64,000 nucleotides of DNA, taken from the NCBI RefSeq assembly GCF_001307035.1, contig NZ_LKIU01000005.1, forward strand, positions 1,226,300 through 1,290,299. The letters run 5' to 3'. Source of the DNA: Arthrobacter sp. Edens01. Its GTDB lineage: Bacteria > Actinomycetota > Actinomycetes > Actinomycetales > Micrococcaceae. A model generated the notes under the pieces. The model was given only the letters and a program-made list of their open reading frames with translations. It had not been told where the DNA came from and did not search any database. Of this stretch, positions 42,443 to 45,794 are shown piece by piece (position 1 is the first letter of the stretch; the number at the start of each line of letters is the position of its first letter). The translations under genes were made by a program, and so were the position numbers.

Positions 42443-42529
42443 ATGAGCTTTAGCGGCTGCCCTGCTGGGGCAGCGGGCATTACTGATGGACCCGGTGGGT
42501 CTTTCGAACTGATGAGGGAGAAAAAATGA
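42443..42529 (+). CDS. Possible upstream ORF of rbpA (28 aa)
   Basis: 28 codons starting ATG AGC TTT and ending in TGA that overlaps the rbpA ATG as ATGA. Two hairpins lie within it: GCTGCCC/GGGCAGC (42456-42474) and GACCC/GGGTC (42489-42501). No good Shine-Dalgarno. It may couple translation to rbpA or be chance. Confidence 0.3.
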   Translation: MSFSGCPAGAAGITDGPGGSFELMREKK

Positions 42530-42876
42530 GCGATCGTAGCCTGCGGGGTATGCGACTGGGTGCGCAGAGCATGGAGACTGAATCCGGCGTCGAGCCGGCT
42601 CCACGCCAGCGTGTCGAGTACCGCTGCGAGGACGGCGAACGCGTGTTCGTGACCTTTGCTGCCGAGGCAGAGGTTCCCCCGGTCTGGGTATCCAAGACCG
42701 GCAAGGAAGCCCTGCTCGTTGACGGTGAGAAGCCGGACACCAGCAATGAGAAGCCGGTGCGTACGCACTGGGACATGCTGCTGGAGCGCCGCAGCATCGA
42801 AGAACTCGAAGTCATTCTCCAGGACCGCCTGGATAAGCTTCGTGAGCGCCGCGGGGAACGTACGGCTTCCAAGTAG
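42526..42876 (+). CDS. rbpA: RNA polymerase-binding protein RbpA
   Basis: 116-residue actinobacterial general transcription factor that contacts the sigma subunit and promoter DNA and stabilises the open complex. The N-terminal SLRGMRLGAQS tail, core beta-barrel (about 25-70; VEYRCEDGERVFVTFAAEAE) and C-terminal sigma-interaction helices (WDMLLERRSIEELEVILQDR) are all present. In this protein the core shows only the single cysteine of YRCEDG, so zinc is not coordinated by a full Cys set. A long leader contains a stress promoter, a TATAAT and hairpins. Confidence 0.96.
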   Translation: MSDRSLRGMRLGAQSMETESGVEPAPRQRVEYRCEDGERVFVTFAAEAEVPPVWVSKTGKEALLVDGEKPDTSNEKPVRTHWDMLLERRSIEELEVILQDRLDKLRERRGERTASK

Positions 42877-42977: not shown

Positions 42978-43706
42978 CTAACCCCGTTTGGTGAGCTTCT
43001 CCCAGCGGGCAGACAGGCCCCACTTGGTGACGTTGGCGATTGCTTCAAAGACAATGTTGCCGCTCATCTTCGACGCCCCGAACTCGCGCTCCACGAACGT
43101 GATGGGCACCTCGGTTATCCGAAGCCCCAGACGGGCCACGCGGAAGGTCATGTCTACCTGGAAGCCGTAGCCCACGGACTCAACCGCGGAGAGGTCCAGC
43201 TTCTCGAGGGTGCTGCGGCGGAAGGCGCGGTATCCGGCTGTGATGTCCCGAACCGGGATTCCAAGCATCAGCCGCGAGTAGGTGCTGCCTGCACGGGAAA
43301 GCAGCTTGCGGTGCAGGGGCCAGTTCACCACTGAACCTCCGGGGACCCAGCGGGAACCGATGACGAGGTCTGCTCCGGCGGCGGAAGCCTCCAGCAGCAG
43401 CGGGAGCTGCTCAGGCTTGTGTGAACCGTCGGCGTCCATCTCCACGAGGACGTCGTAGCCGTTTTCAAGGCCCCACCGGAATCCTGCGATGTACGCTGCG
43501 CCCAGGCCTTCCTTGCCCTTGCGGTGCAGGACGTGGACCTTGGGGTCCAGGGCCGCCTGCTGGTCTGCATAGGCACCGGTGCCGTCGGGACTGTTGTCAT
43601 CGGCAATCAGGACGTCCGAATCCGGGACGGCGGTGCGCAGCCGCTGCAGCGTCTTGGGCAGCGACTCGATCTCGTTATATGTGGGGATGATGGTGAGAAC
43701 GCGCAC
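42978..43706 (-). CDS. ppm1: Polyprenol monophosphomannose synthase
   Basis: 242-residue GT2 enzyme of the dolichol-phosphate-mannose synthase family, making polyprenyl-phosphate mannose from GDP-mannose for lipoglycans and protein O-mannosylation. [11 protein letters not shown] (nucleotide site), [21 protein letters not shown] (DxD) and [10 protein letters not shown] are diagnostic. No N-acyltransferase or C-terminal membrane domain, so it is the catalytic domain alone, as in non-mycobacterial actinobacteria. GTG start at 43706. Upstream lies a likely structured RNA. Confidence 0.93.
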
Positions 43707-43721: not shown

Positions 43722-44033
43722 CGAACACGAGCCGCGCTTATCGCGGCTCGGAGGGGGTACTGCGGACGAAGGCAGGATTACCAGTATATGGGAGCTTCGC
43801 CAGGTACTGCCCTTGGGCGGTTTCGGCGCCGGGCGCACAAAGGGACAGGTTCCGCCGTCTTCGGGCCAGTTCCGGAGCCTCCGGACCTGTTTTCTACTGA
43901 CGGATGAACCTGTCCCTATGTGTTGCAACAGATGGCCCTGCACCGCATAAGGGTCTGAAGAGCCATCACCCCCACACACGAAGTGCCCGGGCCGTGGCAC
44001 CTTGGTACCGGCAATGCCGGACCGTGCCGCGGT
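43722..44033 (-). ncRNA. Candidate structured RNA (or long leader) upstream of ppm1
   Basis: About 310 nt. Transcription from the promoter at 44067-44040 would start near 44033. Helices visible: hairpin 43996-44028 (GGCAC/GTGCC around GGTACCGGC/GCCGGACC), an 11-bp closing helix AGGGACAGGTT (43841-43851) / AACCTGTCCCT (43907-43917), inside it CCGTC/GACGG (43855-43859 / 43899-43903) and CCGGAG/CTCCGG (43872-43884). A long-range GGGGGT/ACCCCC pairing is possible. The 3' end is the 9-bp hairpin at 43728-43750 followed by TGTTCGTT. No ORF in it looks like protein. The size and rod-like layout recall Ms1/6S-type RNAs, but I cannot match a family. Confidence 0.45.
43728..43750 (-). terminator. Hairpin at the 3' end of the candidate RNA
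   Basis: CGAGCCGCG / CGCGGCTCG with a 5-nt loop; on the - strand it is followed by TGTTCGTT. It ends about 20 nt before the ppm1 GTG. Confidence 0.5.
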
Positions 44034-44039
44034 GTGTCT

Positions 44040-44067
44040 AGACTACGTCCTGAGCACGAAGTGTCAA
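44040..44067 (-). promoter_or_regulatory. Promoter of the candidate RNA
   Basis: TTGACA (44067-44062), 16-bp spacer, TAGTCT (44045-44040) on the - strand. The best -35/-10 pair in the window; no coding start follows for over 300 nt. Confidence 0.6.
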
Positions 44068-44153
44068 CATGTTTCCTGACTAGGTGACTCATGCGTTCAC
44101 GCAGGTCAGAGCCCTGTTATTCCGGGACAGAGACAGGAAAGTTTTTCGGGGGC

Positions 44154-45794
44154 CTAGCTAAAATCCGGTGCCCGGTATAGCTCCGTCCCCAGGTGCACGG
44201 TCTGCAGGCAGCGGGGCAGCTCGGCAGTGTCCAGGGCCGGCAGGAGCGGTGTACCCGCCCTGGGATCGGTGCTCCAGGAAGCAACTGAGGCGTCTGGAGT
44301 CTGCACCATCAGCTCGTCAGCCTCCCATACGGCGAAGGACGCCGGAGTTCCGGGTGCAAGCTGGCCCAGCATGGGGTTTCCCGTGCCGGCAGCGCGCCAC
44401 CCGGCACGGGTGTGGGCGATGAAGGCCGCCCGTGCTGAGATCCGCTCGGCCGGACTGTTATGCATCACTGCGGCCTGGACGGTCCGCCAGGGATCCAGAC
44501 CGGTTACGGGCGCGTCAGAACCGAACACAACGGGCACCCCGGCAGAGAACAGGGCAGCGAACCGGTTCATCGACGTGCTGCGCTCCCCCAGGCGCTGGGA
44601 ATACATGCCGCCGTCCCCGCCCCAAAGAGCATCAAAGGAAGGCTGCATGCTCGCTGTGACGCCGTACCGCACCAGTTCGGCCACGGCGGCGTCGTCGCTT
44701 AGCTCAAGATGCTCCAGGCGGTGGTGCGCAGCGCGCAGTGCCTGCTCCCCTACGGCCGCGGCAGCCAGACGAAGGGCACCAATAACGGTGTCCAGGCCCG
44801 CATCGCCTATGACATGGAACCCGGCCTGCAGGCCCGCGCGGGTGGTCAGCTCCAGGTGGCGTGCTGCCTGTTCGGCGCTAAGGTACACACTGCCGGAGGT
44901 CTCCGGCGCGTCGCTGTAGGGAGAGCGCAGTGCGGCTGTCCGCGCACCGATGGACCCGTCGATGTTCAGGTCTCCTGCCAGGCCCAGCAGCCGGCCGCCG
45001 AAGGCCTCCGTAATCTCTGCCAGCTCGGCCTCGTTCTGTGCCAGCTGCCCCCAGTACGGGAGGACCTGCGGTGCAGGGGCATCCGGCATGCTGCCTTCCA
45101 GGCCAAGGAGCTGCCGCAGGTCCTCTGCCGGTGCAATGTGCGGTGCGGCCATCTCGGCCACGGCCACGATGCCTCGCGAGGCAGCCAGATCAAGGGCCGT
45201 GCGCTGGTAGCGGGCCCGCTCGGAGAGCGAAAGGCTGCGGGATACCGCCCGGGCTGCTTCGTGGGCACCGCCGGTGACGAAGCCGTCTTCCCAGCCGTCC
45301 AGGCGGGCCAGCCCAAGCTCGGCAGCCAGGGTTCCGGAGACCACGGCGCAGTGCACATCGGCCCGGGCCAGGTAAACGCGGCGGTTGCCTGAAGCGCGGT
45401 CGAGTTCGGCTGCTGTCGGGACCCTGCCTTCAGGCCAGGCGGACTCGTCCCAGCCGTGCCCGATGATCAGGCCCAGCGAGCCGTGAGCAGCTGCTGCGAC
45501 GGCGTCGAGCAGCCCGTCGAGGCTGTGCACGCCCGTGAGGTCCAGGGACGAGGCGGCAAGACCGGTCTCGGTTAGGTGGACATGGGAATCGACGAATCCG
45601 GGGGCGGCGAGGGCGCCCTGCAGGTCCACCACCTGCATTTGGTCGTCCTGGATGGACGTGGCGGCCTGCTCCGAGCCGACCCAGGCGACGGTTCCGCCGT
45701 CAACCAGCATGGCGGTCGCGAACGGGTCTGCTGAGCTGTAGACCGAGCCGTTGCGGTAAAGGGTCAGGGCATTGGCCGGGGCCGTGCTGTTCAA
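44154..45794 (-). CDS. Amidohydrolase (YtcJ/NfdA-like, amidohydro_3)
   Basis: 546-residue metal-dependent hydrolase of the amidohydrolase superfamily. Metal ligands HVH (His71, His73), a His in FHVIGDAG, another in HHRLEHLEL, and the Asp in FGSDAPV. N- and C-terminal strands form the usual beta-sandwich. Relatives hydrolyse N-formyl or exocyclic amides; the substrate is unknown. TTG start at 45794 with AGGTGAG upstream. The 3' side borders the candidate RNA promoter. Confidence 0.88.
   Translation of the reverse strand: MNSTAPANALTLYRNGSVYSSADPFATAMLVDGGTVAWVGSEQAATSIQDDQMQVVDLQGALAAPGFVDSHVHLTETGLAASSLDLTGVHSLDGLLDAVAAAAHGSLGLIIGHGWDESAWPEGRVPTAAELDRASGNRRVYLARADVHCAVVSGTLAAELGLARLDGWEDGFVTGGAHEAARAVSRSLSLSERARYQRTALDLAASRGIVAVAEMAAPHIAPAEDLRQLLGLEGSMPDAPAPQVLPYWGQLAQNEAELAEITEAFGGRLLGLAGDLNIDGSIGARTAALRSPYSDAPETSGSVYLSAEQAARHLELTTRAGLQAGFHVIGDAGLDTVIGALRLAAAAVGEQALRAAHHRLEHLELSDDAAVAELVRYGVTASMQPSFDALWGGDGGMYSQRLGERSTSMNRFAALFSAGVPVVFGSDAPVTGLDPWRTVQAAVMHNSPAERISARAAFIAHTRAGWRAAGTGNPMLGQLAPGTPASFAVWEADELMVQTPDASVASWSTDPRAGTPLLPALDTAELPRCLQTVHLGTELYRAPDFS

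Follow-up and report, generated by a model that had tools for sequence, protein, structure and literature searches.

A candidate stand-alone structured RNA gene upstream of ppm1 and its relatives in Actinomycetota

Does the minus-strand spacer between an amidohydrolase gene and ppm1 in Arthrobacter sp. Edens01 carry a leader of ppm1, or an RNA gene in its own right? A preliminary description, made from the letters alone, had left both possibilities standing, a stand-alone RNA of about 310 nt or a regulatory leader. We examined the locus in its window (the whole stretch of 64,000 nt that was analysed) and in related genomes, and found by sequence, folding and covariation that the spacer holds a structured RNA gene, most likely a stand-alone one. 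In the window family, which is Micrococcaceae-like, the RNA follows the amidohydrolase gene and precedes ppm1, and rbpA, the adjacent unit that had been named from the outset, is convergent with them; Pfam also places a DSHCT/DEAD helicase among the window neighbours (Table 1).

The spacer, its promoters and the upstream repeat

The stretch described is more stable than its shuffled versions (z = -5.5, with 0 of 100 as good), and its most conspicuous elements are indeed present in the sequence: a hairpin at 43996-44028, which is recovered in the folds, and an 11-bp perfect helix (43917-43907 with 43851-43841) enclosing two inner helices. TTGACA-N16-TAGTCT, singled out as a promoter, lies where it had been reported, and the call rests on its conservation in relatives, since a sigma-70 promoter scan listed none, TAGTCT having 3 of 6 consensus letters and falling under the limit of the scan. 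Among the 94 members with enough upstream sequence, drawn from 97 aligned ones (alignment A6), a perfect TTGACA is located 50-240 nt ahead of the core in 75, as opposed to 2 of 94 control stretches farther upstream, and NANNNT follows 15-19 nt past it in 74 of the 75, L099 having TTGACA without a matching -10; the other 19 have no TTGACA in the tested stretch. By sequence, the family thus possesses the promoter of its own that a stand-alone ncRNA calls for.

Table 1. Coordinates of the locus within the window
Feature	Position	Strand	Basis or remark
rbpA, convergent neighbour	42526..42876	+	PF13397 (Pfam)
ppm1-like glycosyltransferase	42978..43706	-	PF00535 (Pfam)
GC-rich hairpin, ppm1 leader, outside RNA	43728..43750	-	after ppm1 -10; similar in close relatives
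TATACT, predicted -10 of ppm1's own promoter	43783..43788	-	sequence; similar boxes in RNA-less spacers
RNA transcript (predicted), ~196 nt	43838..44033	-	fold z = -4.7, 0/200 shuffles as stable
Core 3′ hairpin	43841..43917	-	covariation in A1, A4, A6
Loop, right side GGCCCGAAG (consensus GGNCCGAA-G)	43859..43867	-	A6, 97 sequences
Loop, left side UAGAAAAC (consensus UAGANAAC)	43889..43896	-	A6, 97 sequences
5′ domain	43930..44033	-	fold and RNAalifold of 8 relatives; variable among genera
Predicted RNA promoter, TTGACA (44067-44062)-16 nt-TAGTCT (44045-44040)	44040..44067	-	sequence; conserved in relatives
32-bp inverted repeat, operator-like	44077..44108	.	TGACCTGC-N16-CCTAGTCA; ends 9 bp ahead of -35
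Amidohydrolase, neighbour upstream of RNA	44154..45794	-	PF07969 (Pfam)

Both ends of the RNA are predicted, the 5′ end from the -10 and the 3′ end from the UUU that comes after the hairpin. With the start set 7 nt past the -10 and the end at the end of the core, the predicted length in relatives lies between 129 and 273 nt, with a median of 209. The U-run after the hairpin is weak, with five or more T in the next 10 nt in 3 of 97 members. A second promoter-like -10, TATACT, sits between the core hairpin and ppm1, and comparable boxes (TATAAT, TATACT, TACAAT or TAGAAT) could be recognised by eye at that place in five of the six RNA-less spacers printed, all six negative with the model in the covariance search (L053, L056, L068, L076 and L080 with a box, L087 without). 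Because this -10 lies downstream, the RNA most likely ends at the hairpin, near 43838. The structured stand-alone RNA proposed at the outset is therefore retained at a reduced size, about 196 instead of 310 nt, with covariation, its own promoter, persistence without ppm1 and persistence among other neighbours in its favour; the single 310-nt unit is rejected on account of the ppm1 -10, and the reading as a ppm1 leader is disfavoured, as ppm1 apparently has its own promoter downstream. The GC-rich hairpin noted just before ppm1 does exist, but past that -10, hence outside the RNA; for the same reason it is assigned, together with the ACCCCC arm, to the leader of ppm1. The suggested long-range GGGGGT/ACCCCC pairing extends beyond the predicted RNA and found little support: the ACCCCC arm reads GCCCTCC and TCCTCC in L024 and L026, where the pairing is reduced, and it is largely kept in L021 and L027. 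Comparison of open reading frames revealed no peptide common to 11 relatives; a short frame is common to L020 and L022, and is not listed in L023-L025.

In two loci of the same family (L099 and L104), a bare core hairpin stands alone just ahead of ppm1, possibly as a reduced version of the RNA; in L104, TTGGAC-N17-TAGACT is found shortly ahead of it.

Ahead of the promoter there is an operator-like inverted repeat. In many relatives it reads TGACCTGC-N16-GCAGGTCA, the window copy being among the degenerate ones. With up to 4 mismatches in 16 allowed, TGACCTGC-N15-17-GCAGGTCA ends 8-9 bp ahead of TTGACA in 50 of the 75 relatives that have the latter, versus 2 of 75 control regions, and there is no clear inverted repeat in the remaining 25. 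The N16 form with at most one mismatch was also searched for in 23 genomes, hand-picked mostly for already showing the repeat: it is located at the RNA in 19, elsewhere only in two (G535 and G739), and is absent in two. Further sites occur in 4 of the 19, and matches to a reversed control pattern in one genome. Two regions with extra sites, in G568 and G641, were read by eye: a tRNA gene adjoins the site in L350, and the site in L351 precedes a gene for a secreted transglycosylase-like protein. They point to no regulator, and a literature text search for the half-sites gave, among the matches listed, no actinobacterial regulator by title.

The arms of the window repeat are asymmetric (TGACCTGC / CCTAGTCA), many genera have TGACCTGC in both arms, and L084 has TGACTAGG in both, which suggests two related half-sites for one regulator. 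In some members of the class, a second upstream element, GGCGTGTC...GACACGCC, could be seen by eye about 100 bp upstream of the TTGACA of the RNA (L171, L184, L185), with half of it in L170, L226 and L231; it is absent from the window spacer.

The core hairpin and the 5′ domain

The outer helix of the core pairs 43917-43899 with 43859-43841, with two mismatches, and the inner stem begins at 43889/43867. Nearly all pairs of the outer helix are altered among genera in the spacer comparison, and the internal loop stays fixed. In A6 this loop is nearly invariant, asymmetric and not palindromic: bearing in mind that its 97 members were picked by a model that favours such loops, the left side reads U (94 of 97), A (96), G, A, any letter, A, A, C (97 each), and the right side G, G (97 each), any letter, C (94), C (97), G (95), A (97), A (96) and the closing G (97). 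Letters that stay fixed inside a loop, within a helix whose own pairs are free to change, would suit a site shown to a protein or a ligand. Many members have an AGUA/GAA arrangement in the loop, presumably resembling the loop E (bulged-G) motif. Relatives of L367 and the class of G935 carry CCAAAGG or CCCAAAGG on the right side in place of CCGAAGG, a coherent variant of an otherwise conserved loop. Of 20 hand-picked class members that were aligned, many have a GCAGCC-like loop in the inner hairpin.

An alignment of related spacers had been proposed as a check, and it brought out strong compensatory change, as expected of a stand-alone ncRNA, in all three alignments. In A1, made with MAFFT from 45 sequences with no structure fitting, the structure being drawn from the same sequences, double changes fill 218 cells as compared with 68.7 (sd 7.2) after shuffling, with 0 of 500 shuffles as high; 23 of 25 pairs show changes on both sides, and 86.8% of cells are paired, versus 33-47% for slid structures. 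These 45 sequences come from 59 distinct cores, L034, L059 and L107 having been left out earlier, the last of which entered later via the model. The model-fitted A4 (55 sequences) and A6 have 363 and 695 double-change cells, versus 99 and 230 in shuffled alignments; the number of pairs with double changes, taken alone, was matched by 8 of 500 shuffles for A4 and by 124 of 500 for A6.

The 5′ domain in the window is predicted to fold into hairpins at about 44032-43992 and 43967-43931, with a short one between. In the wider set, the 5′ end was paired with the segment preceding the core of the same member, giving a mean of -23.2, compared with -21.4 (sd 0.32) for swapped members and -22.3 for the best of 200 swaps (n = 104, rows including close relatives); the set leaves out 21 loci lacking a convincing promoter as well as those in which none was found, and includes 13 loci from other classes. 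The signal is uneven, with many members no better than swaps. A closing helix formed by the 5′ end is predicted as likely outside the window genus; within it, where such a helix is at most a possibility, separate 5′ hairpins fit the folds better. The most compact member, L367, has a TTGACA/TATGAT promoter, a 5′ domain closed by GUUCCGG/CCGGAAC, and a 20-bp hairpin with the loop, followed by UUU (fold z = -4.4, 0 of 200 shuffles).

Occurrence and gene context in Actinomycetota

Plain DNA similarity detected the locus in only 15 of 197 family genomes, namely 12 of the genus and three with pieces of 30-32 nt, and the search was therefore moved to spacers anchored on ppm1. The resulting set of ppm1-upstream spacers (90 loci in 89 genomes, G025 being represented twice) consists mostly of spacers longer than 300 nt or shorter than 200 nt. 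A pattern scan allowing mismatches located the core in 65 of the 90, and of the 25 misses 10 were retested with the covariance model, which recovered three (L074, L075 and L093). In genome searches, the covariance model matched 118 of 197 genomes of the family; for the order the count was 62 of 297, for the class 135 of 345 (E<=0.01) and for the phylum 18 of 198, six of the latter outside the class; in two other classes, those of G811 and G935, the counts were 5 of 31 and 11 of 27. Absences and copy numbers are provisional, since only the best candidates were scored per genome and searches of more than 40 genomes were run with stricter filters. Within these bounds, the matches listed occur once per genome, except in G507, G854 and G1032, and the window's own genome yielded one match among the 14 and the 22 best candidates scored. 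In G507 two contigs score equally, which may reflect a duplication in the assembly.

In G854 (L382, L384) and in G1032 (L380, L385) the two matches have different contexts, L382 following an amidohydrolase gene.

Carriers among the stretches listed by a pattern scan of named genomes include Nonomuraea, Micromonospora, Actinoplanes, Nocardiopsis, Nocardioides, Salinispora, Streptosporangium and Kineosporia, and we infer that Streptomyces carries the RNA as well. PF04602 is present in 6 of 118 genomes, all of them in family f22, which we therefore take to be mycobacterial. Its 39 genomes gave no convincing match with model R3: at E<=0.1 two were matched, with E 0.005 and 0.02, both by hairpins of 45 nt.

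That scan returned at least 119 stretches, 80 of which are listed. In these 80 loci ppm1, which we take to be SCO1423 in S. coelicolor, is downstream on the same strand in 46 of the 46 where it was matched. Where at least 4 kb of downstream sequence is available, ppm1 is matched in 29 of 37 loci and rbpA in 25 of 37, leaving eight with ppm1 unmatched; an amidohydrolase gene is matched upstream in 15 of the 61 loci that have 2.5 kb or more on that side. Outside the window family, lnt may intervene between the RNA and ppm1 (L205 and L207, by Pfam): in L205 it starts less than 40 nt past the core, and in L207 it follows the RNA with ppm1 unmatched. Outside the class, an amidohydrolase neighbour is found in L368, L382 and L383, the first of which also has ppm1. 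The neighbours, named by eye, are different in L366 (transporter genes and a polA-like gene) and in L367 (a dapA-like gene and a GGDEF regulator); rbpA was unmatched near the RNA in both, and both retain the TTGACA promoter, the two domains and the loop. The association with ppm1/lnt is thus not the constant one of a riboswitch, being broken in the eight loci without matched ppm1 and in L216, L366 and L367.

In L216, a convergent rbpA lies about 120 nt after the RNA, with no room between them for ppm1 or lnt.

Relation to known RNAs and possible mode of action

The RNA appears, from its sequence relatives and as far as could be found, to represent an undescribed family spread over Actinomycetota. 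Neither the window nor any of 16 carrier loci contains a match to an Rfam 15 family at gathering score, in agreement with the initial remark that no family could be named, and three stretches searched at E up to 10 gave weak matches to other families alone (mir-8834, dauA and WT1-AS among them). The likeness to Ms1 and 6S RNA that had been raised does not extend to membership, as there is no Rfam match, the gene context is not that of Ms1, and the ends close no rod. 6S RNA binds the sigma-70 holoenzyme and templates pRNA; its 5′ and 3′ ends pair into one rod with a large central bubble. The present RNA is alike in its size range and its succession of helix, internal loop and helix, but it does not match the Rfam model of 6S and has its conserved letters in a small loop; the predicted folds put its 3′ end in a hairpin of its own, and any pairing of the 5′ end is with the stretch ahead of the core hairpin. 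Ms1, which is known from Mycobacterium, binds the RNA polymerase core without the primary sigma. It is scr3559 in Streptomyces and is likewise actinobacterial, stand-alone and stably folded; in contrast, the present RNA was not convincingly found in f22, the family inferred to be mycobacterial. As described in passages of PMC9130861, Ms1 adjoins a HAD hydrolase gene with oxidoreductase/glycoside hydrolase genes, whereas the present RNA is found beside amidohydrolase and lnt/ppm1 genes (PF07969, PF00535 and PF13397 in the window); the same passages have Ms1 lost in smaller genomes, and 13 of the 20 unmatched family genomes listed (79 being unmatched) are smaller than 3.0 Mb.

We found no description of this RNA in the literature searched; an unnamed listing in a supplementary sRNA table is possible. 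A search with the letters of the loop motif returned titles on C. elegans and on a Pseudomonas phage protein. Passages of an RNA-seq study in Streptomyces report 90 sRNAs in S. coelicolor, with scr1434-type sRNAs that are intergenic, conserved and expressed (PMC3765725); the present RNA shares the first two properties, and its transcription is predicted. scr1434 was named after its right-hand gene; the present RNA is upstream of ppm1, and it may sit among the 90, seen but unrecognised as a family.

We favour, with a probability of about 0.57, a stand-alone structured ncRNA gene, the loop of which is bound by a protein and the product of which acts in trans under a regulator bound at the repeat. 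A housekeeping-type promoter would make an RNA of about 130-270 nt, composed of a variable 5′ domain and of a 3′ hairpin that is probably its terminator as well; the long helix would present the nearly invariant asymmetric internal loop, to which one conserved protein would bind, and the RNA would act in trans within a ribonucleoprotein, its amount being set by the regulator at the inverted repeat, which, centred near -60, would serve as an operator in many members, as with a class I activator. That the gene stands alone is the most likely part, on account of the covariation, the promoter, the mostly single copy, a pattern of loss and retention that does not follow ppm1, and the change of context in other classes. 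Action in trans via a loop-reading protein is probable, the own promoter, the operator-like repeat and the independence from neighbours favouring a trans-acting ribonucleoprotein.

The loop is as compatible with an aptamer for a small molecule as with a site for a protein, and the invariably downstream position of ppm1 in the named loci listed, together with the lnt gene close to the core in L205, would also fit a leader or a coupled unit. The RNA would then be a cis-acting leader or attenuator of lnt/ppm1, with the loop as an aptamer for a metabolite or a protein and the long helix as a conditional terminator. Like riboswitches and leader RNAs, it lies upstream of genes and has a conserved internal loop about as large as an aptamer; a T-rich stretch past the hairpin in several Micrococcaceae and the bare hairpins of L099 and L104 immediately ahead of ppm1 argue in the same direction. 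We nevertheless think this unlikely, as the RNA differs from such leaders in its own promoter and, often, an operator-like repeat, and in the further predicted promoter before the next gene, with similar boxes in five of the six RNA-less spacers. Moreover, it is kept when that gene changes, occurring by rbpA without ppm1, by lnt alone, or among other neighbours in L366 and L367, and with three exceptions it has one listed match per genome. Most riboswitch classes are not single-copy per genome.

An analogue of 6S or Ms1 that binds RNA polymerase or sigma, its helix-loop-helix mimicking a melted promoter and UAGANA imitating the -10 strand, appears distinctly unlikely: the shape, the size range, the vicinity of rbpA and a loop that starts with UAGANA, which we would liken to a TANNNT -10, agree with it, but 6S has a large bubble, where the present loop is small and does not vary on either strand, and rbpA was unmatched near the RNA in L366 and L367. 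The abstract of PMC9130861 describes 6S as widespread except in Actinobacteria, leaving a place for such an RNA; on the other side, the main text of the RIP-seq paper PMC11077062, in which the S. coelicolor passages name scr3559 and scr0792, contains no SCO14, MSMEG_3859 or MSMEG_3860. We hold it very unlikely that the RNA is a base-pairing sRNA addressing mRNAs by its apical loop or 5′ domain: typical size, an own promoter and the GCAGCC-like inner loop are compatible with this, but the most conserved letters are in the internal loop, which offers no free seed, while the 5′ domain and the apical loop vary among genera. Almost no credence is due to a mere terminator or DNA palindrome without RNA function; a long hairpin with inverted repeats nearby could look like one, but neither the compensatory changes and the fixed non-palindromic loop nor the conserved promoter directly upstream would be accounted for.

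The stand-alone, trans-acting RNA that we favour may be taken one step further, to a phylum-wide housekeeping RNA of Actinomycetota that pre-dates the split of the classes, is mostly single-copy under a dedicated operator, and docks by its loop onto a core machine (RNA polymerase/sigma, the ribosome or an RNA-processing enzyme), in a 6S-like role with an architecture unlike 6S; we offer this as a tentative idea, on the unlikely side. Covariation and a range this large are unusual for an RNA missing from Rfam: the range covers the Micrococcaceae-like window family, Micromonospora, Nonomuraea and Nocardioides, Streptomyces by inference, and other actinobacterial classes. The RNA probably has a general role in Actinobacteria, none having been found described, and would add to the small number of RNAs known to be widely conserved in these antibiotic producers. 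The covariance model can be used for its wide annotation. Two questions become directly testable through the fixed loop and the operator-like repeat: the partner of the loop, whether protein or ligand, and the regulator of the gene.

In the class of G935, the loop of the inner hairpin is itself nearly fixed as GUAUGGGGAAGG (L353, L358, L375-L381 and L384), and from its sequence a second binding site is possible there.
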